NCBI GenBank assembly: GCA_016183425.1
Contig: JACPEP010000010.1
Span: 1 to 40,748, forward strand
Direction of reading: 5' to 3'
DNA from: Chloroflexota bacterium
Lineage (GTDB): Bacteria > Chloroflexota > Dehalococcoidia > JACPEP01
Length of the DNA: 40,748 nt
Part shown: in pieces, positions 7,067-23,340 of the stretch
Layout of the letters: every line of letters starts with the position of its first letter
Numbering within the stretch: position 1 is the first letter of the stretch
The notes under the pieces: generated by a model
Database searches by the model: none
What the model saw: only the letters and a program-made list of their open reading frames with translations
What the model was told of the DNA's origin: nothing
Made by a program: the position numbers and the translations under genes

Positions 7067-7321
7067 ACGCAGGGAACCACTGCGTCGCCGTTCTTGCCCC
7101 TCCCTCAATCTTCCGCTTTTAAGGATGGTTCCACCTTCGCCGTGGAGACGGACATGATCCCCATTACCCGGTTAGGGCGTGCGGATTACTTCGTTCGGGA
7201 GATGGCTGAGCAGATTGCTTGGGTCAGCCAGAGGCAAATGCAAGGAGTGGAGGGGGCTTCAGCGTGGGAGCAGTGCCGTCTTGAAAAACAACTTGCAAGG
7301 TAAGAGAAGGAGGAATATTCC

Positions 7322-7678
7322 ATGGTTGGCTACGATCTAAAAACAATGAAAGCGCCGGATGAGGTGAGAACCTTCGAGAAGGGCGTGCTGGAGGTGGTGA
7401 AAATCGACGGCAGTATAGTTGGCAGGTCGGTATTCCAGCCAGGCTGGCGCTGGTCGAAACATGTAAAACCCATCGCGAAGACAGAATGGTGTGAGGCACC
7501 CCACTTCTTGTACTGCATCTCGGGCCGTATGCATGTCATCATGTCTGATGGCAGAGAGTTCGAAATGGGCCCTGGGGATGTGGCAAGAATGTCAGCCGGG
7601 CACGATGCGTACGTAGCGGGCGATGAGGCTGTCGTCGCCATCGATTGGCAAGGGGCCTCCCAGTACGCGCTGAGTTGA
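7322..7678 (+). CDS. Small single-domain cupin protein
   Basis: Protein of 118 residues starting at ATG 7322, with AGGAGG about 7 bases upstream. It is a single cupin barrel: the first motif is HFLYCISGRMHVIMSDGREFEMGPGD (about 60-86) and the second is the shortened MSAGHDAYVAGDE (about 88-102). The His before FLYCISG and the later His are candidate metal ligands, but the classic HxH pair of motif 1 is absent, so metal binding is uncertain. Small cupins of this type act as sensors, epimerases or dioxygenases; the sequence does not say which. It stands alone between two terminators. Confidence 0.75.
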   Translation: MVGYDLKTMKAPDEVRTFEKGVLEVVKIDGSIVGRSVFQPGWRWSKHVKPIAKTEWCEAPHFLYCISGRMHVIMSDGREFEMGPGDVARMSAGHDAYVAGDEAVVAIDWQGASQYALS

Positions 7679-9508: not shown

Positions 9509-10426
9509 TTAGCCTACCCGTATCCCTATGAAAGCGGCGGCTATCCTCATGGCCACTGGACCCAGTATCACTATAAACATTGCGGGGAGAATAAACAAGA
9601 CCAGTGGGAAAAGCATTTTGACGGGGGCTTTCATGGCTTGCTCTTCTGCCTCCTGGCGCCTTTTTATCCGCATGGAATCTGAATGGACGCGCATGATGTC
9701 GGCAATACTTACCCCCATTTGCTCCGCTTGTATGATAGTGGCTATGAAGGACTGGAACTCAGAGACTCTAACTCTTTGGGCCATATCTCTCAGCGCCTGA
9801 CTGCGGGGCTTTCCTAGATTTATCTCCAGAAGGGCACGTCCTATCTCATCGGCCAGTGGCCCTTTGGTCTTTTCGCCTACCTTGGCCAGGGCGGCATCCA
9901 GGCCGTAACCGGCCTCGATGCAGATGGTTATGAGGTCCAGGGCATCGGGCAGGCTTTTGCGGATCCTATCCTGTCGGGATTTGATCTTGCGACTCAGCCA
10001 GAAGTCGGGCAGGCGAATTCCCAGAATAAAGAGGGCGATGCCGATGACAATTTCTTTGAGTCCCAGGTGTCCTGTCCTTAAGAAGGGGGTGATAAACAAG
10101 AGGGGTAGGAGGAGGCTGAGGACAACCGTCAGCGATAAAAACCCGTGGGGGCTTATGCCGCTGAGGTTGGCCTGATCGAGCTTTTCTTTGGTTTGTTTCA
10201 GGATCCCTGGTGGGGCAAACCGAGCCAGCAGGCGGCCAAAGTTCTCTAACAGGGGAGAGAGGATGCGCCGGGAGAAGGGCTTGTTCAGATCTACGACCAC
10301 CCGGGCCGTGGGCATATATCCGTGTTTTCTAAGACGGTTCTCCACGCTCTGGGGAGTGGGAGGGGTCATGGCCCAGAAAAAGAGAACTATTGTTATGAAG
10401 GCTAAGACAGGTATCAGCGCCAACAT
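9509..10426 (-). CDS. tadC: Tad pilus inner-membrane platform protein TadC
   Basis: Protein of 305 residues with an N-terminal membrane helix (1-21), two central helices (about 95-140) and a C-terminal pair (about 270-300) around a type II secretion F (GspF) domain (about 158-285: SLPDALDLITICIEAGYGLDAALAKV...QAEQMGVSIADIMRVHSDSMR). TadC and TadB form the membrane platform that couples the TadA ATPase to pilin polymerisation. It lies 13 bases downstream of tadB in the same operon. Length and motifs are normal for the family. Confidence 0.92.
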   Translation of the reverse strand: MLALIPVLAFITIVLFFWAMTPPTPQSVENRLRKHGYMPTARVVVDLNKPFSRRILSPLLENFGRLLARFAPPGILKQTKEKLDQANLSGISPHGFLSLTVVLSLLLPLLFITPFLRTGHLGLKEIVIGIALFILGIRLPDFWLSRKIKSRQDRIRKSLPDALDLITICIEAGYGLDAALAKVGEKTKGPLADEIGRALLEINLGKPRSQALRDMAQRVRVSEFQSFIATIIQAEQMGVSIADIMRVHSDSMRIKRRQEAEEQAMKAPVKMLFPLVLFILPAMFIVILGPVAMRIAAAFIGIRVG

Positions 10427-10439
10427 GTGGCCCCCTTTG

Positions 10440-11408
10440 CTAAACTTCTATGTCTACAATACGTCTCATGACTAAGAAACCGATTACTTCCATAAACAGG
10501 GCCGCCCCCAGCAGAAAGAGGCCCAAGGGAGTGCTGAAAAGCTCCCGCAGATAGCGGGGGTTCATAATGCTGATGACTCCCATCAAGAAGAAAGGCATCA
10601 GCCCGACGACATAGCCGGAAAAACGGGCCTGGGAGGTGCGAGTGTGCACCTCTCCCAGGATGCGGATGCGCTCTCTTATCGTATGGGCGATGTTGTCCAG
10701 GACCTCGGCCAGGTTACCGCCCACCTGCCGCTGTATGATCACGGCCGTTGCCAAGAGGTCGAAGTCGTAGCTGGGTACCCTCTTCACAAGCTGGGTCAAG
10801 GCCTCTTCGATACTGTTTCCCAGGTTCAGCTCCGCCAACACCTGTTGGAACTCCTCGGCGATGGGGGGGGACAGCTCTTTGCTGACCAGATCCAATCCCT
10901 GGCTGAAGCTGTAGCCCGACCTCAGGGAGTTGGAGATGAGGCCGATGGCATCTATTAACTGATTGACGGTCTTCTTCAACCGGCGCTGTCGCTGGTAGCG
11001 GAGGAAAAAGTGTGGGATGTAGAACCCTATTATTCCGGCCACCAGTCCCAGAAGCCATATTTCATTCCTTAAGAAGAAGGGGAGGGCCAGGACCGCGGCG
11101 CAGAGCCATCGGACGAGGATATACTCGCCTACCCGCATGGGTATCCCTGCTTGAGCCAGGTCCAGGGCCATTTTTTCGGCGAAGTGGCTCTTTTGGAGCA
11201 ATTGGTGCAGCCAACTTATAGCGCTGAAGCGGCGGTCTCTCAGAAGGATGGACGCCGCCTGAGGTGCGCCGCTATCCGCGGCCTTTGCTTCATAGCGCTG
11301 TATCCGTTCTCTGAGAAGCCGGGGCTCGCGGACGCGATGGTACAAGGCAAAAATCCCCAGGGCGACCCCGGCGAACACGGCCACTGGCATAAGTAATTCT
11401 AGTTCCAT
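10440..11408 (-). CDS. tadB: Tad pilus inner-membrane platform protein TadB
   Basis: Protein of 322 residues: N-terminal helix (about 5-25), two central helices (about 100-135), a GspF-type cytoplasmic domain (about 147-270; LIDAIGLISNSLRSGYSFSQGLDLVSKEL...QRQVGGNLAEVLDNIAHTIRER) and two C-terminal helices. It pairs with TadC in the pilus assembly platform. The ATG at 11408 is 10 bases downstream of the tadA stop, consistent with tight operon organisation. Confidence 0.92.
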   Translation of the reverse strand: MELELLMPVAVFAGVALGIFALYHRVREPRLLRERIQRYEAKAADSGAPQAASILLRDRRFSAISWLHQLLQKSHFAEKMALDLAQAGIPMRVGEYILVRWLCAAVLALPFFLRNEIWLLGLVAGIIGFYIPHFFLRYQRQRRLKKTVNQLIDAIGLISNSLRSGYSFSQGLDLVSKELSPPIAEEFQQVLAELNLGNSIEEALTQLVKRVPSYDFDLLATAVIIQRQVGGNLAEVLDNIAHTIRERIRILGEVHTRTSQARFSGYVVGLMPFFLMGVISIMNPRYLRELFSTPLGLFLLGAALFMEVIGFLVMRRIVDIEV

Positions 11409-11418
11409 AGCTTCCCCC

Positions 11419-12762
11419 TTAAGAAAGAGTAAAGATGCCCTGAGGCAACCGGATGCCCATAAGTTCGATTCTCTCGATGAACTTGGGCCGGAGACCGGTG
11501 GCCCGCAAGCGTCCCCTTACTTTTCCATCTATACCTATCCCTTCCTGTTTGAATTCGAAGATGTCCTGGAGGGTGATGATTTGGCCCTCCATACCGACTA
11601 CCTCGGTTACATGGGTTACTTTGCGGCTTCCATCCTGTAAGCGGCTAAGGTGGATGATTGCTTGAAAGGCGGAGGCCATTTGATCCCGAATGGCTTTCAC
11701 CGGCAGGTCTAACCCAGCCATGAGGACCATGTTTTCGATCCTAGCCAGGGCATCCCTGGGGGAGTTGGCGTGGGCGGTGGTCAGGGAGCCGTCGTGGCCG
11801 GTGTTCATCGCCTGGAGCATATCGAAGGCCTCTCCCGTCCGCACCTCGCCCACGATGATGCGGTCGGGCCTCATGCGCAAGGCATTACGCACCAGGTCCC
11901 GTTGGATGATGGTGCCCTTGCCTTCGATATTAGGTGGTCTCGTCTCCAGGCGTACTACGTGGGGCTGGCGCATTTGAAGCTCAGCCGGGTCTTCAATGGT
12001 CACGACTCGCTCTGTCCAGGGAATAAAGCTCGAGAGAACGTTTAAGAGAGTAGTCTTGCCAGAGCCGGTGCCCCCCGAGATTACCAGGTTTAACCGGGCC
12101 GCGACACAGGCTTTGAGGAACTCTGTTACCTCAGGGGTAAGGGTGCCAAAATTGATCAGGTCTTCCGCTTTAAAGGGGTCTTTGGAGAACTTGCGGATGG
12201 TGATGGTGGGGCTGTCCAGGGCCACGGGAGGAACTACGATATTGACCCGGGAGCCATCGGGGAGGCGGGCGTCTACCATGGGGCTGCCTTCGTCCACTCG
12301 CCGGCCTAGAGGCGAGATTATGCGATCTATAATGCGCATGACGTGATTTTGGTCTCGAAAGGACTTGTCGCTGAGATATAGGATTCCGTTACGCTCAATA
12401 TAGATCTGGTTGGGCCGGTTGACCATCACCTCGGAGATGGTAGGGTCTTGAATAAGGGGTTCCAGGGGGCCCAGCCCCAGCACGTCATCCATCACCTCGG
12501 CTATTACCTGCTGCCGTTCCTGGCGACTTAGTACGATGTCATCCTCGCGAAGGAGGGTGGTTATAGCCTGGGACACCAGGCTTTGCATGTCCGATGGGGA
12601 CCGATGGTTCAGCTTGGCGATGTCAAGCTGTTTGAGGAGTTGGGACTGGATTCTGCTTTTGATGTCGGCCAAGGGGTCTGGCGGGGCCTCTAAACGAGGG
12701 GAGGTGGAGCCTACCGGTGTCATCAAACTTTCCTTTGTCCCGTTAGTCAATTTTAGTTCCAT
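11419..12762 (-). CDS. tadA: Tad pilus assembly ATPase TadA/CpaF
   Basis: Protein of 447 residues of the type II/IV secretion ATPase (GspE/VirB11-like) family. Residues 1-90 are a helical N-terminal domain. Walker A is [10 protein letters not shown] (about 230-240), the Asp box region is TIEDPAELQ, Walker B is [12 protein letters not shown] (about 300), and a His box lies in [12 protein letters not shown]. All catalytic motifs are intact. The hexameric enzyme powers extension, and in CpaF-type systems also retraction, of Flp pili. A GTCGAGGGCAACA leader precedes the ATG. A similar AGGAAGTCGA segment ends the upstream tadZ gene, a short duplication across the 54-base gap. Confidence 0.95.
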
Positions 12763-12816
12763 TGTTGCCCTCGACTTCCTATTGTACCGGTTTGTTGGTT
12801 AAGCGTAGTCTCACGG

Positions 12817-14034
12817 TTACCTTCGACTTCCTAATCTACCTACCAATGCATTCAGCATATGGGAGGCCTTTTTGGTGTGTAATCCGCTGATGCTTCGGGC
12901 TAGCTGCAGGATGTTCTGGGAGATTTTGGCCTTGGGGCGGGCGAGGATAAAGGATTGCCCCATATTGGTGGTCTGGGTGCATGTATTGTCAAAGGGTATC
13001 TTCCAGAAAATAGGATATTGGAGGACCTTGCTTGCTTCTCCTGGTGGGATAGCGTGGTTCTGGTGGGGATAGTTGACCACTAGCTTCACCTTGTCATCTG
13101 AAAATCCTTGGCTACGCAGTATCTCCAGGAACACCTTGGTATTCTTGATGGACGTGATTTCTGTGGAGGTTACCAAGACGATTATGGTGCTCATTTCCAG
13201 AACGGCCAGCAGGGTGGGAGTCAGGAGTTGGTCGCCGTCGATGACCACGTAGTCATAGCTTTTGGTCAAGCATTCTACTATCTGGCTTATCAGCCCGGGC
13301 GAGGGGAATCCATTGTGGTTGACCTCGGTGGATGCTGCCAGCACCTTGACGCCGGATGAGTGGCTGGAGAGGAAGCTCTCTACTATCTCTGGCTCCAGCA
13401 GACGGGTGAGGTTGCCCATATCGGCCATGGTGCGTTCGGGTACGATGTCCATCATCATGGCCACATCCCCCAGTTGGCTGGCCAGGTCTACCAGTGCCAC
13501 TCGCTGCTTTGTTTCCGAAGCCAGGCCGATGGCCAAGCTGGTGGCCAGGGTAGTCTTGCCGATGCCTCCTTTGGGGCCGATTATGGTATAAACATCACCT
13601 TGAAGGGCCTCCGTCTCCGCCAGTGCTTGTCGCCGCCTATCTCCTTCCAGGACATCCAGAATAGTTTGGGCCAGCTCTCTGGCTTTGAGAGGTTTTACCA
13701 GATACTCTCTGGCCCCAGAACGCATGGCCCGTCGTAGGTACTCCGTGTCGCTCAGGGATGAGTAGGCCACCACCAGGCCCGGTTTGAGGTTGGCCAGGTT
13801 TTCGATGGTCTTGAGAGACCTGGCTATGGGTTCTTCGAAGGCGACGAGGATGATGTCGGGTCCCAGTTCTTGGGCCACACTGTGGGCCTCGATACCGGCT
13901 CCGCATTCCTCTATGGCCGTCACGTTGATCTCGCTGCTTTCAATCAAGCGGCGCAACGTGCTCCTCTCCTCCAGTCTGTCGTCCACCAGCAATAACTTTA
14001 ATCCTAGATTCATGACTCTCAGCTCTATGCTCAT
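12817..14034 (-). CDS. tadZ: Pilus localisation ATPase TadZ/CpaE with degenerate receiver domain
   Basis: Protein of 405 residues. Residues about 10-130 form a receiver-like domain: the acidic pair LLLVDD and the conserved Lys (LVKPL) are present, but the phospho-acceptor position reads ILVAFEEP with no Asp, so phosphorylation is unlikely, as in other TadZ/CpaE proteins. Residues about 145-390 are a MinD/ParA-type ATPase with a deviant Walker A (GPKGGIGKTTLA), a switch region (LVDLASQLGDVAMMM) and YVVIDGD. TadZ places the pilus machine, usually at a pole. Its ATG is 4 bases beyond the stop of the upstream cpaB gene, implying translational coupling. Confidence 0.92.
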   Translation of the reverse strand: MSIELRVMNLGLKLLLVDDRLEERSTLRRLIESSEINVTAIEECGAGIEAHSVAQELGPDIILVAFEEPIARSLKTIENLANLKPGLVVAYSSLSDTEYLRRAMRSGAREYLVKPLKARELAQTILDVLEGDRRRQALAETEALQGDVYTIIGPKGGIGKTTLATSLAIGLASETKQRVALVDLASQLGDVAMMMDIVPERTMADMGNLTRLLEPEIVESFLSSHSSGVKVLAASTEVNHNGFPSPGLISQIVECLTKSYDYVVIDGDQLLTPTLLAVLEMSTIIVLVTSTEITSIKNTKVFLEILRSQGFSDDKVKLVVNYPHQNHAIPPGEASKVLQYPIFWKIPFDNTCTQTTNMGQSFILARPKAKISQNILQLARSISGLHTKKASHMLNALVGRLGSRR

Positions 14035-14038
14035 GCCC

Positions 14039-15433
14039 CTACCCCTTGGTGGGGACTGCTGCCCACCCAGCCGCTATATAGCCCACTAAACCGGATTCAG
14101 TAACTTGCACCTTATACCAATCGGCCTCCTGTCCTAAAAGCTTCAACTGGTTACCATAAAAGACCTGACCGATGACGGGAGAGCTGATGTTGGGACCGCT
14201 GCGCAGGTCGGCGGCGTCCACGGTTATCAACACCATATCGGCGGCGGTCACCGTCACTTTCACCAGACCTACGTTATCGTGGGTCACGTTGGCGGGCTCC
14301 TCGATAAGTCCGGCCCAGTAATCAGTGGCGGCCATGCCGCTGGTTACTTTGACATAACCTACAACGGTGGTGCTGGCCCCCGGGGCCAATTCTCCTCCCA
14401 GTCCCCATCGATATGGATATTCCACGGGGCGGTTTGCTCCGAAGTTTAGACCTACCCGGAAGGCCCCTGTCTGAGGGCCGAAGTTCTGAGACTGGAAGGT
14501 TTGCCCCTGTACGTAGGTGAAGCCTGGCTCCGGTCCCTGGCTTCGGATGGGGGCATTGGAGATGTTCTTTACCGTAATCTCCACCTTCATCACATCGCCG
14601 GCGTTGAGGGTTACCGGGGAGATGGATACGGCGGTGATCTCAGCCGCCCCTTGGCGGAGAGGGCTGCGGATGGTGCTAAGGGTAGCCTCTGTCAAGTCTA
14701 CCCGAGTTCTCTCCTGGTTGGCCCTGAGGGCCAGACGGATCTTGCCGTTGGACTCAGCTAAAAAGAGCCTTTGCGCCTCCTCCGGGGTCACGGCCAGGGT
14801 TACTGTTTTGGCCAGGGGAAGGGGCTTAGGGTTAGTCTTGGGGGCTGTGGGTGTCGCGTTCTTCCCATCCAAGGCCTGGCTGGCCGTATCTAGGGCGCTT
14901 TTCGCGGGAAGCTCGCCCTCCAAACTCTGGGCCACGGCTAACACCTCGATGTCCTGAAGGATGATGGCGGACATATCTTTGCCCATGGTCTTGGCATCGA
15001 AGACGGCTACGACGTCCACACGGTCGCCAGGCAGTATCAGGCCTCCGGCGCCGGTGACCTCGTTGGTGTTCAGGGCCACCGCCCGCTTGGAGGGAGGGAT
15101 GATGAAGGACAGGCCTGATTCTTCCCTGGCTGCGGTGAACTTGGTGATCAGCACCTGCTCTCCTCCGGTAATGGGGAGACGGCTGACCTGCCCCTCGGCC
15201 TGCCGGATGCTGCTTAGAGCCTCGGGGTGCTTGGCGGCGGCTGGTATCTCCACTTCTTTAAGCATGCTGCCGGTGATTTTGGTACGCACCGGAATATCCT
15301 GGGCCGCTACCACCACCCGTGCCATGGGCACCGGTGCCTGGGCCTGCTGCTGGACGATGCGCCAGGAGAGTATCGCCGCTACGGCGCCGAATACCAGAGC
15401 CAGCAGCCATATCTTACTATTACCAGATCTCAT
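14039..15433 (-). CDS. cpaB: CpaB/RcpC pilus assembly protein fused to Ig-like and SH3 domains
   Basis: Protein of 464 residues, about 150-200 longer than typical CpaB/RcpC. An N-terminal membrane helix (about 7-25) is followed by an SAF domain (about 38-100: VVAAQDIPVRTKITGSMLKEVEIP) and the RcpC/CpaB domain (about 105-260), with characteristic LPGDRVDVV and LAVTPEEAQRLFLAESNGKIRLALR. Residues about 262-385 are an exported beta-sandwich (NAGDVMKVEITVKNISN...LAPGASTTVVGYVKV). Residues about 398-462 are a bacterial SH3 domain (VDAADLRSGPNISSPVIGQVFYG...WYKVQ...VGYIAAGWA). In diderms RcpC works with the RcpA secretin; no secretin occurs here. The extra SH3 domain could anchor the complex to peptidoglycan in a cell without an outer membrane (inference). 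Confidence 0.88.
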   Translation of the reverse strand: MRSGNSKIWLLALVFGAVAAILSWRIVQQQAQAPVPMARVVVAAQDIPVRTKITGSMLKEVEIPAAAKHPEALSSIRQAEGQVSRLPITGGEQVLITKFTAAREESGLSFIIPPSKRAVALNTNEVTGAGGLILPGDRVDVVAVFDAKTMGKDMSAIILQDIEVLAVAQSLEGELPAKSALDTASQALDGKNATPTAPKTNPKPLPLAKTVTLAVTPEEAQRLFLAESNGKIRLALRANQERTRVDLTEATLSTIRSPLRQGAAEITAVSISPVTLNAGDVMKVEITVKNISNAPIRSQGPEPGFTYVQGQTFQSQNFGPQTGAFRVGLNFGANRPVEYPYRWGLGGELAPGASTTVVGYVKVTSGMAATDYWAGLIEEPANVTHDNVGLVKVTVTAADMVLITVDAADLRSGPNISSPVIGQVFYGNQLKLLGQEADWYKVQVTESGLVGYIAAGWAAVPTKG

Positions 15434-15526
15434 CTTTACCTCCTTTTTGTGCTTTTCGTGAAGTCGTTCTCTTAATGCACACAGTGCTGGTGTTGCGTGT
15501 TTTCATAATCTGCATAAACCGGGCTT

Positions 15527-16750
15527 CTACTCCCATAGCCGTGCTGCCCAAAGTCCGGTATTCGTGTCAGACCAGTTTCCGCCGCTGACTATGGCAAAAT
15601 CGGTGAAGTAGCCCCATACCAGGAGCTGTCCTCCCGGGCCGGTGGTGCGGCCAATGAGGTAGAAGGCTCCCCAGTCGATGATGTCTACCGGCTTCTTGCC
15701 TCCCAGGCTACCCCACTCCTGGGCAATTATGGGCACGATTCCCACTCGGTAGCAGGAGGAGGCGTTACCTACCCAGTCGATAGGAGGCGGCGTTGAGATG
15801 CCTGTGCCATAGGGAGGTGGCAAATCCGCTGGCTTTTTGGGAGCTCCCGGCCAGGTGCACTGGTCTAAGGGCTCGTTCCAGGCACTGGCGGGATTGTCCT
15901 GCCCGGATGAAGCCGCCATGCTTACCAGGTAATCCACGCCGTCTCGGGTATCGCCGACCTTATTTCCTGTCTCTGTTTGCACATGAGGGTCGTCCACCTG
16001 GGTGCACGGGGCGTTGGTGGTGCCGCACCAGGGGAGGCTGGGCTTGATGTAGTCGCCGGGTTCTTCGCCGTATCCGGTTTTGATACTGTCTCCATAGTCC
16101 TTGGCACCGGAGGAGTTGGGAAAGTCTAGAGGAAAGAAGTTGCCCGGCGATCCTGGCGGCGATGAGAACTTCAGGATAATGGGGACATCTTCAGGGACAC
16201 CGCAGGTATCGGGGGTAAGGGGGTCATTGTCCCAGTCGCTGCAGTTGGAAACTCCCCAGGGCCAAAGCCCTTCGGTGGGCAGCACAGGGCCGATGACGGC
16301 TGTCGCCACTCCTTGCACATGGCCGGCGGGGCTGTTGAGCAGCCCGGATACCATGAGGGTCAGGTCGCGGCTGGCGGATACCTTGACCCCATTGTAGTAG
16401 TAGGGGCTTAACGGGCTGCAATTATCGTTATATGGGCCGGGGACGCAAAGGACTTGCGGATAGCCGGCGTCTACCTGGTCTGGTGAAATACCGTTGCGCT
16501 GAGCGTAGTCCAGGGCGGTATTGATGGCCAGGGCTTGCCTGTCTGCCGTAGAGAGGTCCATGCGGAGCAACTCTTTGGCGCCGGCCAGGGATGCTCCGTC
16601 CACCCCATTCTGCAACTGGCGGCGATTCTCGTACATCACGCCCATCTCGGCTACACCAGCCCCGAAGGTCAGCAGGGCCACCATGGACAGGGTGATATAG
16701 ATAAGGACACTGCCTTTTTGTTCCTTGATGAGCTCTTTTAATCGTTTCAT
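15527..16750 (-). CDS. tadG: TadG-like pseudopilin with large exported domain
   Basis: Start chosen at ATG 16750: GGAGG (16759-16763) lies 8 bases upstream, and an in-frame GTG at 16759 would overlap it. The 407-residue protein begins with a basic stretch and a hydrophobic helix (KGSVLIYITLSMVALLTFGAGVAEMGVMYENRRQLQNGVDGASLAGAKEL), matching the TadG/TadE-like Flp N-terminus with its DGASLAGA motif. The remaining roughly 330 residues form a Pro/Gly/Trp-rich exported domain with several Cys pairs. TadG-like minor pseudopilins probably sit at the pilus base or tip. Its ATG is 1 base from the stop of the upstream tadE gene. Confidence 0.82.
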   Translation of the reverse strand: MKRLKELIKEQKGSVLIYITLSMVALLTFGAGVAEMGVMYENRRQLQNGVDGASLAGAKELLRMDLSTADRQALAINTALDYAQRNGISPDQVDAGYPQVLCVPGPYNDNCSPLSPYYYNGVKVSASRDLTLMVSGLLNSPAGHVQGVATAVIGPVLPTEGLWPWGVSNCSDWDNDPLTPDTCGVPEDVPIILKFSSPPGSPGNFFPLDFPNSSGAKDYGDSIKTGYGEEPGDYIKPSLPWCGTTNAPCTQVDDPHVQTETGNKVGDTRDGVDYLVSMAASSGQDNPASAWNEPLDQCTWPGAPKKPADLPPPYGTGISTPPPIDWVGNASSCYRVGIVPIIAQEWGSLGGKKPVDIIDWGAFYLIGRTTGPGGQLLVWGYFTDFAIVSGGNWSDTNTGLWAARLWE

Positions 16751-16751
16751 T

Positions 16752-17192
16752 TTATCCACCTCCTGCGGGAGCGCTCTCCGTTCTCATGGTAGAGCCGACG
16801 CTCAAGGGAACGGGGTTGGGTAAGAAGGCCAGAAGAGGGGGCGAGAAGAGTCTCACATTATAGTCTATTTTCACCGTTAACGACTTCGGAGCAACGGAGT
16901 CAGGGTTCAGAATGGTCTGGGTGGTCAGCTCTGACTGCTCTAGAACCCCCTGGGTCCGTTGGCGGATCAATGCATCCACATCGGCGCTGGTAGCCCTGTC
17001 CGGAACCCTCACCGCCCCCCAACGGGCGGCTTCCCGGGCCTCGTTGGTGATAATGAGCCAGCTACCGAAGATGCGCCCCCCCTCGACGATGCCAAAAGTG
17101 ACCAGGATTAAGAGCACCAGCACCATGGCAAACTCCACGGTAGCTTCGCCTCTATCCTGTCTTTTTTGTATAGACTTTATGAAAGGAAACAT
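16752..17192 (-). CDS. tadE: TadE-like minor pseudopilin, copy 1
   Basis: Protein of 146 residues with the TadE-like N-terminal motif RGEATVEFAMVLVLLILVTFGIVEGGRIFGSWLIITNEAREAARWGAV (about 14-62). This is a type IVb prepilin-like helix with Gly before the processing site and Glu at +5. The C-terminal part is a small beta-rich extracytoplasmic domain. Prepilin peptidase probably cleaves after the Gly. The gene is 4 bases downstream of the second tadE and ends inside the ribosome binding region of tadG (GGAGGTGGATAA). Confidence 0.87.
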   Translation of the reverse strand: MFPFIKSIQKRQDRGEATVEFAMVLVLLILVTFGIVEGGRIFGSWLIITNEAREAARWGAVRVPDRATSADVDALIRQRTQGVLEQSELTTQTILNPDSVAPKSLTVKIDYNVRLFSPPLLAFLPNPVPLSVGSTMRTESAPAGGG

Positions 17193-18260: not shown

Positions 18261-18446
18261 TCAGGGTGATGCGGGTGGCGTGATGCCACTAATGAAAGTG
18301 CCCAGGTTGGTCCACCAGGTGTTCAGGTTGCCACCCACTACCCCGATGGCGGCAACAGCGGCGATGGCCACCAGGCCTAGAACCAGGGCATACTCGGCCA
18401 CGTCTTCCCCTCGATCGTCTGACCATACTCGATGTAGTAGTTTCAT
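18261..18446 (-). CDS. flp: Flp-type major pilin, copy 1
   Basis: A 61-residue prepilin with a short basic leader, then RG|EDVAEYALVLGLVAIAAVAAIGVVG. The Gly with Glu at +5 and Tyr at +6 is the exact Flp (type IVb) processing motif, followed by the hydrophobic polymerisation helix. The tail is LNTWWTNLGTFISGITPPASP and differs from the other two copies only at the end. AGGAGG lies about 9 bases before the ATG. It is the last of three tandem pilin genes. Confidence 0.93.
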   Translation of the reverse strand: MKLLHRVWSDDRGEDVAEYALVLGLVAIAAVAAIGVVGGNLNTWWTNLGTFISGITPPASP

Positions 18447-18478
18447 TTTTTAATACCTCCTATTTGTGATGGGGGTCT

Positions 18479-18515
18479 GCTGGGGCCAGACGGGGGGTTG
18501 CCCACTGGCCCCAGC
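18479..18515 (-). promoter_or_regulatory. Intergenic hairpin between pilins 2 and 1
   Basis: A perfect 11-bp stem (GCTGGGGCCAG with its complement) encloses 15 bases. The same hairpin recurs between pilins 3 and 2. It has no T run in the direction of transcription. It probably stabilises or processes the pilin mRNA, or partly attenuates read-through. Confidence 0.55.
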
Positions 18516-18528
18516 GCTCTTTCGGCTC

Positions 18529-18708
18529 TTACGGGAACGCTGGTAGGCCACCGATATAGGTGCCGAGGTTGGTCCACCAGGTATTCAGGTTGTCGCCCAC
18601 AATCCCGATGGCGGCAACGGCGGCGATGGCCACCAGGCCTAGAACCAGGGCATACTCGGCCACGTCTTCCCCTCGATCGTCTGACCATACTCGATGTAGT
18701 AGTTTCAT
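18529..18708 (-). CDS. flp: Flp-type major pilin, copy 2
   Basis: A 59-residue prepilin starting at ATG 18708 after an AGGAGG site. The first 35 residues (MKLLHRVWSD through AAIG) are identical to copy 1; the tail is IVGDNLNTWWTNLGTYIGGLPAFP. It carries the processing motif RG|EDVAEY. Its DNA is almost identical to copy 1 across the leader and helix, so the copies diverged recently or are kept alike by gene conversion. It was found by reading the strand directly because it is short. Confidence 0.92.
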   Translation of the reverse strand: MKLLHRVWSDDRGEDVAEYALVLGLVAIAAVAAIGIVGDNLNTWWTNLGTYIGGLPAFP

Positions 18709-18767
18709 TTTCTAATACCTCCTATTTGTGATAAGATAGTTTTGGACACCCTTTGGATAGGGGGTTT

Positions 18768-18803
18768 GCTGGGGCCGGACGGGGGTTGCCGACTGGCCCC
18801 AGC
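18768..18803 (-). promoter_or_regulatory. Intergenic hairpin between pilins 3 and 2
   Basis: An 11-bp stem with one G-T pair, homologous to the hairpin at 18479-18515, is embedded in a similar intergenic sequence. The duplication unit therefore includes pilin gene plus hairpin. Confidence 0.55.
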
Positions 18804-18813
18804 CCTCTTCCGG

Positions 18814-18993
18814 CTACGGGAACACTGGTAGGCCACCAATGTAGGTGCCCAGGTTGGTCCACCAGGTGTTCAGGTTGTCGCCTACGATCCCGATGGCGGC
18901 AACGGCGGCGATGGCCACCAGGCCCAGAACCAGGGCATACTCGGCCACGTCTTCCCCCCGATCGTCTGACCATACCTTTCGTAGAAACTGCAC
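18814..18993 (-). CDS. flp: Flp-type major pilin, copy 3 (promoter-proximal)
   Basis: A 59-residue prepilin starting at GTG 18993, with GGGAGGTGATC 6-10 bases upstream, the strongest ribosome binding site of the three. It reads MQFLRKVWSDDRGEDVAEYALVLGLVAI and ends YIGGLPVFP. It differs from copy 2 mainly in the leader (QFLRK versus KLLHR) and one tail residue. It is first in the pilin series, directly downstream of the receiver gene. Confidence 0.92.
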   Translation of the reverse strand: MQFLRKVWSDDRGEDVAEYALVLGLVAIAAVAAIGIVGDNLNTWWTNLGTYIGGLPVFP

Positions 18994-19076
18994 TTTTGAT
19001 CACCTCCCTTCTTTTTTGGTTGTAAGGCGCTGCACGGCGAGAAGGGTTACGGGAACACTACCTTTCGTGTGCGCCG

Positions 19077-19796
19077 TCAATGGTTTGCCTCGTCAGCGTA
19101 GAACATTTTATGGGTGGTTGTCATGTGTGTTGCGTGTGAAAACCTTTGAAAACTAACACGGAGGGTTTGCAAATCCCAAAGGAGGGCGGCCAAAATCAAG
19201 GCCCATCCCGTCATCAGGAATCCGGCTTCCATTGGCCGCAAAAAGGCGACCGCCAGGAGTTCCAGGGAGAGGGCCACGGCCACCAAATGAATCAGCCGCC
19301 AGATGGGCACCTGGTTTCTGCTCTTAGTCGCCAAGGTAAACCAGGCGGGCAGGTAGGTGACCTCCTTGGACAGCTTGTTCAACAAGATGTTTCCCCGCTC
19401 ACTTGTGCTCAGGCTAGGTTCCTGACTTAGGCGGTGAAGAACCTTGGTCAGTTGGTGGAGCAGGTCCGCCTCAAAGACGAAGGCAGCCACATGGGCCCGG
19501 GCGGCCGCTTGACGGTATTCGGGGAGGTCGTAGGTGGAAATGACCACCACCTGGGTTCGGGGAAGGAGCCGCCTCACCCATTCCACCACACTCATAGCCT
19601 GAATGTCGGGCAGGGAAAGGTCTAGGATTATGACCTCCGGCGAAAGGAGGGGAATCTTTTGCATGGCGTCCAGCCCGGTTGGCGAATTGCCGACGATCTG
19701 GTAGGTGTTCATACTACCTACCAAGGCCCTCAGGTTGCGGGCGATATCAGGATCGGGCTCTACCAGTAGGACTTTTAGGACTTTCAGGACTTTCAT
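19077..19796 (-). CDS. Membrane-anchored receiver-domain protein upstream of the pilins
   Basis: Protein of 239 residues. Residues 1-120 are a CheY-like receiver: acidic residues in LLVEPDPD, the phospho-acceptor Asp in VIILDLSLPD, and a Ser/Thr switch position in VVISTYD. The usual Lys near 107 is replaced (FVFEADL), so signalling may be atypical. Residues about 120-165 are a linker. Residues about 168-215 hold two hydrophobic membrane helices (LIHLVAVALSLELLAVAFL; AGFLMTGWALILAALLW). There is no DNA-binding output domain. A phospho-receiver tethered to the membrane next to pilin genes suggests direct control of the pilus machine rather than of transcription (inference). Three tandem copies of AAAGTCCT encode its first residues. 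Confidence 0.75.
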   Translation of the reverse strand: MKVLKVLKVLLVEPDPDIARNLRALVGSMNTYQIVGNSPTGLDAMQKIPLLSPEVIILDLSLPDIQAMSVVEWVRRLLPRTQVVVISTYDLPEYRQAAARAHVAAFVFEADLLHQLTKVLHRLSQEPSLSTSERGNILLNKLSKEVTYLPAWFTLATKSRNQVPIWRLIHLVAVALSLELLAVAFLRPMEAGFLMTGWALILAALLWDLQTLRVSFQRFSHATHMTTTHKMFYADEANH

Positions 19797-19893: not shown

Positions 19894-19966
19894 GGGGGAA
19901 ACCTCCTAAATCCTGGGGGTGTCTTCCCCCAATTTTGGGTGGGGCAGACACAGTTTCTTTTTTGCC

Positions 19967-20012
19967 ACATAATCGTCACATTCAAAGACTGATTATTGAT
20001 ATTTTCGTAACA
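19967..20012. promoter_or_regulatory. Paired 14-bp operator-like motif upstream of the receiver/pilin genes
   Basis: ACATAATCGTCACA (19967-19980) and ATATTTTCGTAACA (19999-20012) start exactly 32 bp apart, about three helical turns. The same pair with the same spacing lies upstream of the kinase, and a close relative lies upstream of the CAP gene. A LuxR/NarL-type regulator encoded at 21461 is the nearest candidate to bind it (inference). Confidence 0.5.
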
Positions 20013-20126
20013 TGGTTCCATTACGCTAGGGGCGTAGTGTTCAGAATGAAGTTGGAGAGAGAAAACGAGAACGATAGCGTTTTCCATTAAGAATCGCCTC
20101 CCTCTTCTAGCTGTCCTTCTACCCGC

Positions 20127-20166
20127 AAAACAAAGCGACCTACAAGATGGGTCGCTTTGTTTTGTT
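20127..20166. terminator. Terminator between the two copies of the duplicated element
   Basis: The stem AACAAAGCGACC/GGGTCGCTTTGTT with an 8-base loop is flanked by A and T runs on both sides, so it can work in both directions. No gene precedes it on the plus strand; it may insulate the divergent control regions or end a short unannotated transcript. Confidence 0.7.
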
Positions 20167-20217
20167 CCAGAGGCCTTCCCTCAATTTTTGCTGGTGCAGA
20201 CAAAATTTTCTTTTTCC

Positions 20218-20263
20218 ACATAATCGTCACATTCGAAGGCTGTTTATTTATATTTTCGTAACA
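20218..20263. promoter_or_regulatory. Paired 14-bp operator-like motif upstream of the histidine kinase
   Basis: ACATAATCGTCACA (20218-20231) and ATATTTTCGTAACA (20250-20263) are identical to the pair at 19967/19999 and have the same 32-bp spacing. It suggests autoregulation of the two-component system (inference). Confidence 0.5.
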
Positions 20264-20326
20264 TGATTCCATTAAACTTATCTGATGTGATTGTTGAGTA
20301 TGAGGTTCATAAGAGGGAGTAAGGCA

Positions 20327-20416
20327 ATGGTCCTGCCGGTTACGCTAACGATGGGGGTGATCCTGCTGGTAGGTATTTTTACTCGTTACAGGAGGGCGGA
20401 AAAGTCCGAAAATTAG
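20327..20416 (+). CDS. Possible 29-residue single-span membrane peptide
   Basis: ATG 20327 follows GAGGGAG about 7 bases upstream. The product MVLPVTLTMGVILLVGIFTR then YRRAEKSEN has one hydrophobic span and a basic-then-charged tail, as in known bacterial small membrane proteins. It sits between the operator-like element and the kinase gene in the same direction. There is no recognised family; conservation would be needed to accept it. Confidence 0.35.
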   Translation: MVLPVTLTMGVILLVGIFTRYRRAEKSEN

Positions 20417-20565
20417 GGGATAGATACTTGAAAGACGGGTGTCAATTTACATCCGGAGATAGACTTTTCTAGGCTATGTGTCTGCTGGGCAATGGAAATG
20501 GTAGAGCGAGATAAGGAATTGGGATTGCGGGAAAACAAAAGGGAGAGATAGGAAGGGGGTGGTGG

Positions 20566-21642
20566 GTGGTGGTACGGTACCGGGATATTCCGTCCGGGAC
20601 TGGTGGCGACGATGGGACCGACAGCAATATTAGCAAATATGAGCAGCGGCAAAGGTTGCCGGACGGAGTAGAGGAGGCCCCCGAGAACGGGTGGGAGGCA
20701 GGGGAGGTGGAGCGCCCCTCCCTTCTCGTCGCCGATGCGGACACGGATTACCCCAGGCTCCTGGTCAAGAAAGTAATTGAGGCCCAGGAGGCAGAGAGAC
20801 GGCGCATAGCCCGGGATATTCATGATGAGACCCAACAATTATTGGGAAACGCCATCTTTCGTCTCGATTTGTGCTTACAGCAGAGGCCAGATGCACCACA
20901 ACCGCTACGGAAGGATCTTTTACGCATAAGGGAAATCCTCACCGATAGCGTTCGTGGGCTTCAGGATCTGTCGCAGAGCTTGAGGCCATCACTTTTGGAT
21001 GACCTGGGGCTGAGAGCTAGCCTGGCCTGGTTTTTCCGAACCTACGGTGTTAAAGACCGGGTAAACCTTCGTTGGAATATAACCGGCCTTGTGGGGAGGC
21101 TAGCCTCAGAGGTAGAAATGGCCCTTTTTCGGATAGTTCAGGAGGCGTGCAATAACGTCCTTAAACATGCCCGAGCCAAGAATTTGCGCATCGGGATTCG
21201 CGTCAACCATACCCACGCTATTGTCGTGGTCAGCGACGATGGGGTGGGGTTCGATGTGGAGGGGGTAAAGGCTCGGCGCGGGGCGGAAGGGCACTCTATT
21301 CCTATAGGCTTAGCGGGAATGAGGGAGAGGGCGGAGCTGCTGGGGGGCAAATTGTTCCTGCAGTCTCGCCCGGGCATGGGTACTCGGGTGGCCGCCGTCA
21401 TTCCCTTAAGGGCCTCATATGGAAATTTTAACAATAGAGATTCTAACGTAGGAGGTGGCGATGAAGAAGTTAAGGGCTTTGGTGGAGCCGATTACGGGAG
21501 GTCTGAGCACGTTTCAGGGAGGGGAAAAAGGAAATGGAGCGAAGGGTATGACAACAGAGAAGATACGGGTGCTGGTGGTGGAAGACCACCAACTGGTAAG
21601 GGAAGGGTTGCGCTTGTTGCTGGACAGGGAAGAAGATATTGA
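20566..21642 (+). CDS. NarL-family (HisKA_3) sensor histidine kinase
   Basis: Protein of 358 residues from GTG 20566; no ATG is available in this frame back to a stop at 20512. Residues 1-75 show no sensory or membrane segment. Residues about 75-140 are the HisKA_3 dimerisation domain, with the phospho-acceptor His in RRRIARDIHDETQQLL. Residues about 180-285 are the ATPase domain with the N box (FRIVQEACNNVLKHARA), VVSDDGVGFD, GLAGMRERAELLGG and GMGTRV. It is probably a soluble kinase whose signal is unknown; its cognate regulator follows. Residues 287-358 form a Gly/Arg/Lys-rich low-complexity tail that overlaps the regulator gene in another frame by 182 bases. This is unusual and may mean that the original stop was lost. 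Confidence 0.85.
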   Translation: MVVRYRDIPSGTGGDDGTDSNISKYEQRQRLPDGVEEAPENGWEAGEVERPSLLVADADTDYPRLLVKKVIEAQEAERRRIARDIHDETQQLLGNAIFRLDLCLQQRPDAPQPLRKDLLRIREILTDSVRGLQDLSQSLRPSLLDDLGLRASLAWFFRTYGVKDRVNLRWNITGLVGRLASEVEMALFRIVQEACNNVLKHARAKNLRIGIRVNHTHAIVVVSDDGVGFDVEGVKARRGAEGHSIPIGLAGMRERAELLGGKLFLQSRPGMGTRVAAVIPLRASYGNFNNRDSNVGGGDEEVKGFGGADYGRSEHVSGRGKRKWSEGYDNREDTGAGGGRPPTGKGRVALVAGQGRRY

Positions 21643-22240
21643 GGTTTGCGGAGAGGCCGATACGGGGCATATGGCGTGTAATTTAGCCAGTAAACTCACC
21701 CCCGATGTCATCATTATGGATGTTGAGCTACCGGAAATGGATGGCCTTGCGGCCACCGAGCGCATAAAGGAAGAGTTACCGGGGGCGCACATCCTGGCGT
21801 TGACGGCGCACTCTGATCCGGAATATATCTACGGTATGTTGAGGGCCGGGGCGGAGGGGTATGTCCTGAAGCATATGGCCGCCCGAGACCTAACGTCAGC
21901 TATTCGTGCTGTCCGCAATGGGTCGTCGACTCTTTCGCCCAGCATAGCCCGAAAGCTGATAAATGACATCAGGCAGGATGTCCCTTATCTGCATGCGGAT
22001 GATATGCTCTCCAAACGGGAGAAGGAGATTTTGCTGCTTATGGCCAGGGGAGCCACCAGTAAGGAGATAGCTGAGATTCTTTGTTTGAGTCCTAAGACAG
22101 TGGACAACCATCGTGCCCGCATTACAGAAAAGCTTCAGGTGAGGAACCGTGTCGAGGCGGTAAGGAAGGCCGTAAAACTGGGCATTCTCTCCCACAGTCA
22201 GGCCTGTATCGAGTTAGAAGACCTGCCTGAAGCTGGCTAG
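21461..22240 (+). CDS. NarL/FixJ-type response regulator
   Basis: Start chosen at ATG 21461 (AGGAGG at 21450-21455, 5-base spacer). The alternative ATG at 21548 gives a canonical MTTEKIRVLVVEDH start and would drop a 29-residue extension. The receiver domain has VVEDHQLVREGLR, the phospho-Asp in VIIMDVELPEMDG, LTAHSD and the Lys in YVLKHM. The C-terminal LuxR-type HTH reads LSKREKEILLLMARGATSKEIAEILCLSPKTVDNHRARI. It is the cognate regulator of the overlapping kinase and a DNA-binding activator or repressor. The stop shares a CTAG palindrome with the stop of the convergent CAP gene. Proposed targets are the 32-bp-spaced motifs nearby (inference). Confidence 0.92.
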   Translation: MKKLRALVEPITGGLSTFQGGEKGNGAKGMTTEKIRVLVVEDHQLVREGLRLLLDREEDIEVCGEADTGHMACNLASKLTPDVIIMDVELPEMDGLAATERIKEELPGAHILALTAHSDPEYIYGMLRAGAEGYVLKHMAARDLTSAIRAVRNGSSTLSPSIARKLINDIRQDVPYLHADDMLSKREKEILLLMARGATSKEIAEILCLSPKTVDNHRARITEKLQVRNRVEAVRKAVKLGILSHSQACIELEDLPEAG

Positions 22241-23109
22241 GGACCCAAAAAGAGTATGGTGTAATATTTCATATTTCCCGCGGCGAGGGCAGTTCCCACG
22301 CCAGCAGCCACAAAACGTGGGTTTACGATAGCGCCGTAATGAGAGGGGCTATTGGTGAAAGCCCGTACCACAGACGTTACAGATTGACCAGGGTCGGGGG
22401 AATTGTTGCGGCCCAGGATTTCCCCCATAATTCCAGGCCCCAGCCCATTGGCAACCATTAGGCTGCGGGCGGTTGTTCCGTCGGGGGCCACATGGCCAAA
22501 GTACCCTTTCTCCGCCATATCCTGGCTGCGTTGCCGAGCCAGATCGACCAGTTTGTCGTGGACTTGGAGGGACGGCAGCCCGGCCTGTTGTCTTACTTGG
22601 TCTATGGATTGCAACATCAAGGACTCTAGGGGGGTAAGGGCCAAATGGTCGGTCTCTTCGTTTCCTGTTTCTTCAGGTGTCTCCTCCGGGGAAGATGACT
22701 CTTTTGCCTGGGGGGCCTCCATCGTCAAATTCGTCCCCCCTCCTGCTGAGCTAATTGCCCCCCTTTCTGGGGAAGCCGCCGGAGCACTATCAGAGGCTAC
22801 TTCAAGGGAGGTAGGATTTTCTGGGGATGAGGAACTGGGTTGTGGATCGTTGGGTGGTTGGATTTCGTCAGCCAGGGAAAGGGGGCCTTGGTTGAGCGCT
22901 GGCTGGGGACGCTGAACCTCCGGCGGGTTAGCAAAGGCGAAGGCGATCCTCGTGGGGGGACTTTCTTGTCCCAGAGACGGTTCGAGTGCAGTGGCAAGGT
23001 CTTCTGAGGGTGCCTGGGTCCGGGTATCTAAGGCGAAGTTCCAGGCGAGGGTGATGGTGAAAGCCAGGAGTAGCCCCCGGCGGAACGTTACCCAAGCTCG
23101 TGGTTTCAG
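22237..23109 (-). CDS. Membrane-anchored CAP (SCP/PR-1) domain protein, probable CTG start
   Basis: The CAP domain occupies the C-terminal 130 residues (LTPLESLMLQSIDQVRQQAGLPSLQVHDKLVDLARQRSQDMAEKGYFGHVAPDGTT...SPSHYGAIVNP...GVGTA). The CAP motifs FGHVAP and SPSHYGAIVNP, with their His residues, are present. The first in-frame ATG (22728) has no signal sequence before it. The frame stays open to a TAG at 23118-23120, and from CTG 23109 it encodes KPRAWVTFRRGLLLAFTITLAWNFAL, a textbook membrane anchor, then a 140-residue Pro/Ser/Glu-rich linker. GGTAGG lies about 8 bases upstream of the CTG. I therefore favour a 290-residue exported protein starting at CTG. CAP proteins act outside the cell, often at the envelope; their substrate is unknown. 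Confidence 0.75.
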   Translation of the reverse strand: MKPRAWVTFRRGLLLAFTITLAWNFALDTRTQAPSEDLATALEPSLGQESPPTRIAFAFANPPEVQRPQPALNQGPLSLADEIQPPNDPQPSSSSPENPTSLEVASDSAPAASPERGAISSAGGGTNLTMEAPQAKESSSPEETPEETGNEETDHLALTPLESLMLQSIDQVRQQAGLPSLQVHDKLVDLARQRSQDMAEKGYFGHVAPDGTTARSLMVANGLGPGIMGEILGRNNSPDPGQSVTSVVRAFTNSPSHYGAIVNPRFVAAGVGTALAAGNMKYYTILFLGP

Positions 23110-23192
23110 AACGCTGCCCTACCTATCATAGATTAAATATTGAATTAAATAATGGGTTAGGTAGATTCTGCCTCGTACTTACCCAACATTTT

Positions 23193-23243
23193 TGACAAAA
23201 TCATCACAAAACCATCCAGAACTATGACAAAACCATCACAAAA
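23193..23243. promoter_or_regulatory. Paired operator-like repeat upstream of the CAP gene
   Basis: TGACAAAATCATCACAAAA (23193-23211) and TGACAAAACCATCACAAAA (23225-23243) differ at one base and start 32 bp apart. The core ACAAAATCATCACA matches the ACATAATCGTCACA motif near the kinase and pilin genes at 12 of 14 bases. The site lies 84-135 bp upstream of the CAP start. The rest of the 23110-23340 gap is AT-rich with no gene. Confidence 0.55.
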
Positions 23244-23340
23244 CTATCACCCGTGGGAATTCTTGTCAATGCCTCGGATAGGTTTGGGAGGTGTGGGAAT
23301 GGTATAGATGTGGGTAGCTGGTATCTAAAATGGGCTGTAA

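Follow-up and report, generated by a model that had tools for sequence, protein, structure and literature searches.

A candidate regulated promoter block in three copies in a Chloroflexota genome, with a possible looser relative at a CAP gene

Can a pair of 14-bp words that recurs with an exact spacing be taken as one operator shared by several genes? The question is raised by the window, which is the whole stretch of 40,748 nucleotides analysed here (contig JACPEP010000010.1 of the Chloroflexota assembly GCA_016183425.1). The first-pass annotation had listed such pairs at 19967/19999 (site 1), 20218/20250 (site 2) and 23195/23227 (the CAP site), and had proposed a small regulon of Tad pili, a kinase/regulator pair and a surface CAP protein. 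All six words are present at these positions, the two words of each pair start exactly 32 bp apart, and a LuxR-type regulator is encoded between the sites, as it had reported; this regulator has Response_reg and GerE domains.

The reading that we prefer, with a probability of about 0.55, is that a regulated promoter block of about 55 bp is present in three copies, two of them upstream of the operon for a histidine kinase and a NarL-type regulator and one upstream of a DUF1326-PpoB2 gene pair, and that the CAP site is tentatively a further operator. Observed are the sequence copies, their positions, the repeat periods and the number of block copies in the genome; promoter activity, binding, the regulator's identity and the inclusion of the CAP site are inferred from sequence. 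The coordinates of the features in the window are collected in Table 1.

Table 1. Features of the window around the paired words.
Feature	Position	Strand	Remark
Site 1, upstream copy of the duplicated promoter-like block	19923..20023	+	86% identical to 20175-20274
Site 1, first direct-repeat pair CCACA-N6-TCACA, 11-bp period	19965..19980	+	GTCACA 19975-19980, possible -35
Site 1, second module TGATA-N6-TAACA	19997..20012	+	GATATT 19998-20003, possible -10, 17 bp after GTCACA
Perfect hairpin with 15-bp arms between the copies, terminator-like	20126..20164	+	Transcript from site 1 would end there, ~150 nt
Site 2, downstream copy of the block, preceding the kinase/response-regulator operon	20175..20274	+	
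Site 2, first direct-repeat pair CCACA-N6-TCACA	20216..20231	+	GTCACA 20226-20231, possible -35
Site 2, second module TTATA-N6-TAACA	20248..20263	+	TATATT 20249-20254, possible -10
29-codon ORF after site 2, hydrophobic stretch, plausible ribosome-binding site	20327..20416	+	Candidate small membrane peptide
Histidine kinase	20566..21642	+	HisKA_3 and HATPase_c
NarL/LuxR-type response regulator	21455..22240	+	Response_reg and GerE; start probably ATG 21461
CAP/SCP-family protein frame downstream of the array	22237..23118	-	PF00188
CAP-gene array	23193..23251	+	TGACA 23193, TCACA 23204, TGACA 23225, TCACA 23236, TCACC 23247

Copies of the block in the genome

Sites 1 and 2 have the same orientation, are offset by 251/252 bp, and differ at 14 positions over a 101-bp block. 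Judged by this alignment, the two sites are one tandem duplication of about 100 bp and not independent copies of a motif. They are therefore counted once, and the duplication accounts for both their identical 14-mers and their equal spacing. All 14 differences lie outside both 14-mers, for which P is about 0.007 over the block and 0.03 over its 59-bp core, with the motif edges set post hoc; the unchanged words therefore give a hint that they may be constrained. Taken singly, the 14-mers are barely above chance, with 4 matches to the lead word at no more than three mismatches against 1.38 expected.

A third, diverged copy, which the first-pass annotation had overlooked, was found by a BLASTN search of the whole genome at 49447-49504 on the minus strand of another contig, C31 (E 1.6e-4). 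It retains only the core of about 55 bp, with the pattern TTTT..CACA.A.TCGTCACATTC.AAG.C.G.TT.TT.ATA.T.TC.T.ACA, whereas sites 1 and 2 share about 100 bp. The copy lies upstream of, and is co-oriented with, a DUF1326 gene, with a PpoB2 gene (Pfam: copper chaperone) after it. Its first 14-mer agrees with that of site 1 at 12 of 14 bases and its second at 10 of 14. Since the second word, with 4 of 14 bases changed, is kept no better than the spacer, with 4-5 of 18 changed, a strict operator of the form 14-N18-14 is unsupported.

BLASTN, the pattern and a three-copy profile each gave exactly three copies of the block in the whole genome, and control patterns gave 0 matches. The same profile had no match in the other 392 genomes of the class; these are remote, with regulators of 47% identity at most, so that the absence carries no information on conservation. 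A match at 5758-5779 of contig C2, which sits within a kinase gene, and seven viral-contig matches to a 19-base pattern, which do not extend into the remaining block, were set aside as chance. No paper treating DUF1326 and DUF2182 together was found in the literature searched. Beside the third copy, at 9703-17029 on the minus strand of locus L059 on C31, related FAD-dependent oxidoreductase-like frames stand in a run, interspersed with substrate-binding-protein-like and glyoxalase-like frames.

Promoter geometry and 11-bp half-sites

In all three copies, GTCACA is followed after 17 bp by GATATT, TATATT or TATACT, which are candidate -35 and -10 elements. The spacing lies within the 16-18 bp between the hexamers of sigma70-type promoters, and these are candidate promoters by consensus match only. 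GTCACA can be considered a possible weak -35 element and the three other hexamers possible acceptable -10 elements; the weakness of the former suggests activation. The second 14-mer spans from the -10 region to the expected position of the start site, and, because it begins at the -10 region, the 32-bp spacing is partly ordinary promoter geometry. At sites 1 and 2 the block faces the kinase/response-regulator operon, with the pilin genes behind it.

The repeat [TC][CG]ACA-N6-T[CG]ACA, with a period of 11 bp, is present at all four sites, namely sites 1 and 2, the C31 copy and the CAP site. In 220 kb of own DNA, mostly regulator-centred and chosen partly because it contains the sites, the repeat occurs 8 times, where a Markov model predicts 1.4 and other spacings give 0-3; 5 of the 8 fall at the four sites. 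A 400-kb sample of this genome, the sole independent background for a pattern chosen after inspection of the sites, shows no enrichment of the 11-bp period, with 3 occurrences where other spacings have 0-5. The excess at the sites, together with the lack of enrichment in the 400-kb sample, therefore suggests that the sites share an architecture. Their common half-site register is 0, 11, (32), 43, although sites 1, 2 and C31 have a weak second pair, which may be the -10 region alone. The paired pattern YCRTMACA-N24-YCRTMACA, with up to two mismatches, gave 19 matches against 29 for a reversed control, and its exact matches alone are informative.

According to the preferred reading, the sigma70-like core of each block copy would overlap TSACA-type half-sites with an 11-bp period, and another half-site would follow 32 bp, or three helical turns, further on. 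A DNA-binding response regulator would bind the direct repeats and set the activity of the promoter, and it could be the one encoded next to sites 1 and 2. The promoter block of the two-component operon is probably autoregulated.

Another 11-bp array was seen on C2 at about 7530-7566 (minus strand), where the non-coding series TTCACAC-N4-TTCACAC-N4-TTCTCAC (TTCACACTAAT TTCACACTTAT TTCTCACGC) is upstream of the frame of a small secreted protein (7156-7392). An OmpR-type (winged-helix) regulator is encoded nearby on the same contig.

The site at the CAP gene

The array at the CAP gene consists of five units, TGACA, TCACA, TGACA, TCACA and TCACC, in the register 0, 11, 32, 43, 54, with a degenerate unit between the second and the third, and its autocorrelation is 0.51 at 11 bp and 0.56 at 32 bp. 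Compared with site 1, its lead word agrees at 12 of 14 bases, as had been claimed, its spacer at 6 of 18 and its second word at 7 of 14, giving 19 of 28 for the pair; the second word is a repeat of its own first word. With the second word matching at 7 of 14 bases here and at 10 of 14 in the C31 copy, one operator with both words conserved at three loci is not supported.

The strongest alternative, to which we give somewhat less than even odds, is that the three homologous copies alone are real, as a sigma70-type promoter duplicated in tandem and once onto another contig, while the CAP site is an unrelated A/C-rich 11-bp repeat whose likeness to them is due to chance. It is favoured by the three-copy profile, which does not detect the CAP site (E > 10 in 166 kb), by the poor agreement of the spacer, and by the paired score, since at least 19 of 28 is reached in 10 of 200 shuffled windows (5%). 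Moreover, the array is oriented opposite to the CAP gene and its sequence is unique in the genome. However, shuffles of the 229-bp local intergenic region reach the score in only 3 of 2000 cases, a leave-one-out matrix ranks the CAP site above every other non-member position in 166 kb of own DNA, and the half-site register 0/11/32/43 is shared.

A weak link of the CAP promoter to the element of the two-component operon survives testing, and the CAP site is tentatively regarded as a looser relative and a related operator. In the preferred reading, the half-sites of the CAP promoter region resemble those of the block and keep its register but form a longer array, to which the same regulator, or one like it, would tentatively bind.

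The CAP frame itself has no ATG, GTG or TTG upstream of 22728, yet a hydrophobic signal-anchor is encoded there. This could be explained by a CTG start near 23109, which is preceded by GGTAGGG, or by a sequence error.

Neighbouring genes, candidate regulators and known systems

The region between the two tandem copies allows a further reading, which is doubtful and is compatible with the preferred one, namely that site 1 drives a small regulatory RNA of about 150 nt ending at the hairpin, ahead of the operon promoter at site 2. The terminator-like form of the hairpin and the fold of 20008-20172 (z = -5.2) speak for it, but without the terminator the z value is only -1.3, and Rfam gave no match. 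The 29-codon ORF after site 2 gave no Pfam match. The kinase frame overlaps the regulator gene by about 180 bp in a different frame, and a strong ribosome-binding site, TAGGAGG, belongs to the regulator start at 21461. Among the genome contigs searched, only remote relatives of the kinase were found.

The model of the first-pass annotation, in which the NarL/LuxR-type regulator at 21461 binds to every site and so governs the CAP gene, the Tad pilus and its own operon, is unlikely as a whole. The regulator gene does lie between the sites, the tandem copies precede its operon, and autoregulation is common in two-component operons. Against it, site 1 faces away from the pilin genes and precedes a receiver-domain gene by about 170 bp, which leaves its description as a mark of the pilin operon unsupported, and the clear extra member, the DUF1326/PpoB2 pair, concerns neither pilus nor surface. 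NarL-family regulators usually bind inverted heptamers, and direct 11-bp repeats are atypical of them. In addition, the Tad-specific proteins of the window were matched in 0 of 14 neighbourhoods of the regulator's best matches in other genomes of the class, where the window proteins matched were those of the kinase, receiver-domain and MFS queries only. The Tad-pilus regulon is thus unsupported, adjacency being its whole basis, whereas a shared element at the two-component operon is plausible and its CAP link, through the 11-bp TSACA repeats, is weak.

For the receiver protein at 19077, the relatives searched gave generic receiver matches only and no recognisable orthologue. At 18261-18999 on the minus strand, three near-identical Flp-type pilin frames of about 60 aa stand in tandem, the middle one being a weak Flp_Fap match.

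A phosphate (PhoB) box is very improbable, for although 11-bp TCACA repeats resemble Pho boxes (PMC9019756), the pst-phoU operon has no such block upstream (4123-4565 of L075), and no position of L075 is among the top matrix matches.

A more far-reaching reading, in which one response regulator, through two dimer sites of 11-bp repeats three helical turns apart, would coordinate its own operon (with tandem promoters, one giving a short terminated RNA), the copper-chaperone-like operon and the secreted CAP protein, is improbable. Should the block prove to be a real operator, it would define a small, testable regulon in a lineage without close relatives among the genomes searched, and a common switch for the DUF1326/PpoB2 genes and the two-component system. 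The locus also illustrates that an exact repeated spacing of a motif can arise from local duplication and ordinary promoter geometry.

Three known systems can be compared with these sites. Like tandem-duplicated sigma70-type promoter regions, sites 1 and 2 are near-identical, co-oriented blocks with a -35/17 bp/-10 arrangement, whereas here a third, diverged copy is found on another contig and the -35 element, GTCACA, is a weak match. As in autoregulated NarL-type two-component operons, a HisKA_3 kinase and a GerE regulator lie downstream of the element; the difference is that the repeats here are direct and not inverted heptamers. Among the OmpR/PhoB family, the sites described for ArcA comprise direct repeats of 11 bp in two to five units (PMC3798270), and PhoP has TCACA-like repeats of 11 bp or 7+4 bp (PMC9019756). 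Seven Trans_reg_C matches were found in the genome, and 0 of them are tied to the sites. The likeness to the ArcA box and the Pho/PhoP box lies in half-sites at 11 bp, in two to five units and near promoters, with direct repeats of about 11 bp at all four sites, whereas the second module is poorly kept here and the genome's own pst operon is without the element. By this analogy, the repeats resemble the operators of OmpR/PhoB-type regulators and would fit them better than the NarL/LuxR-type regulator at 21461.
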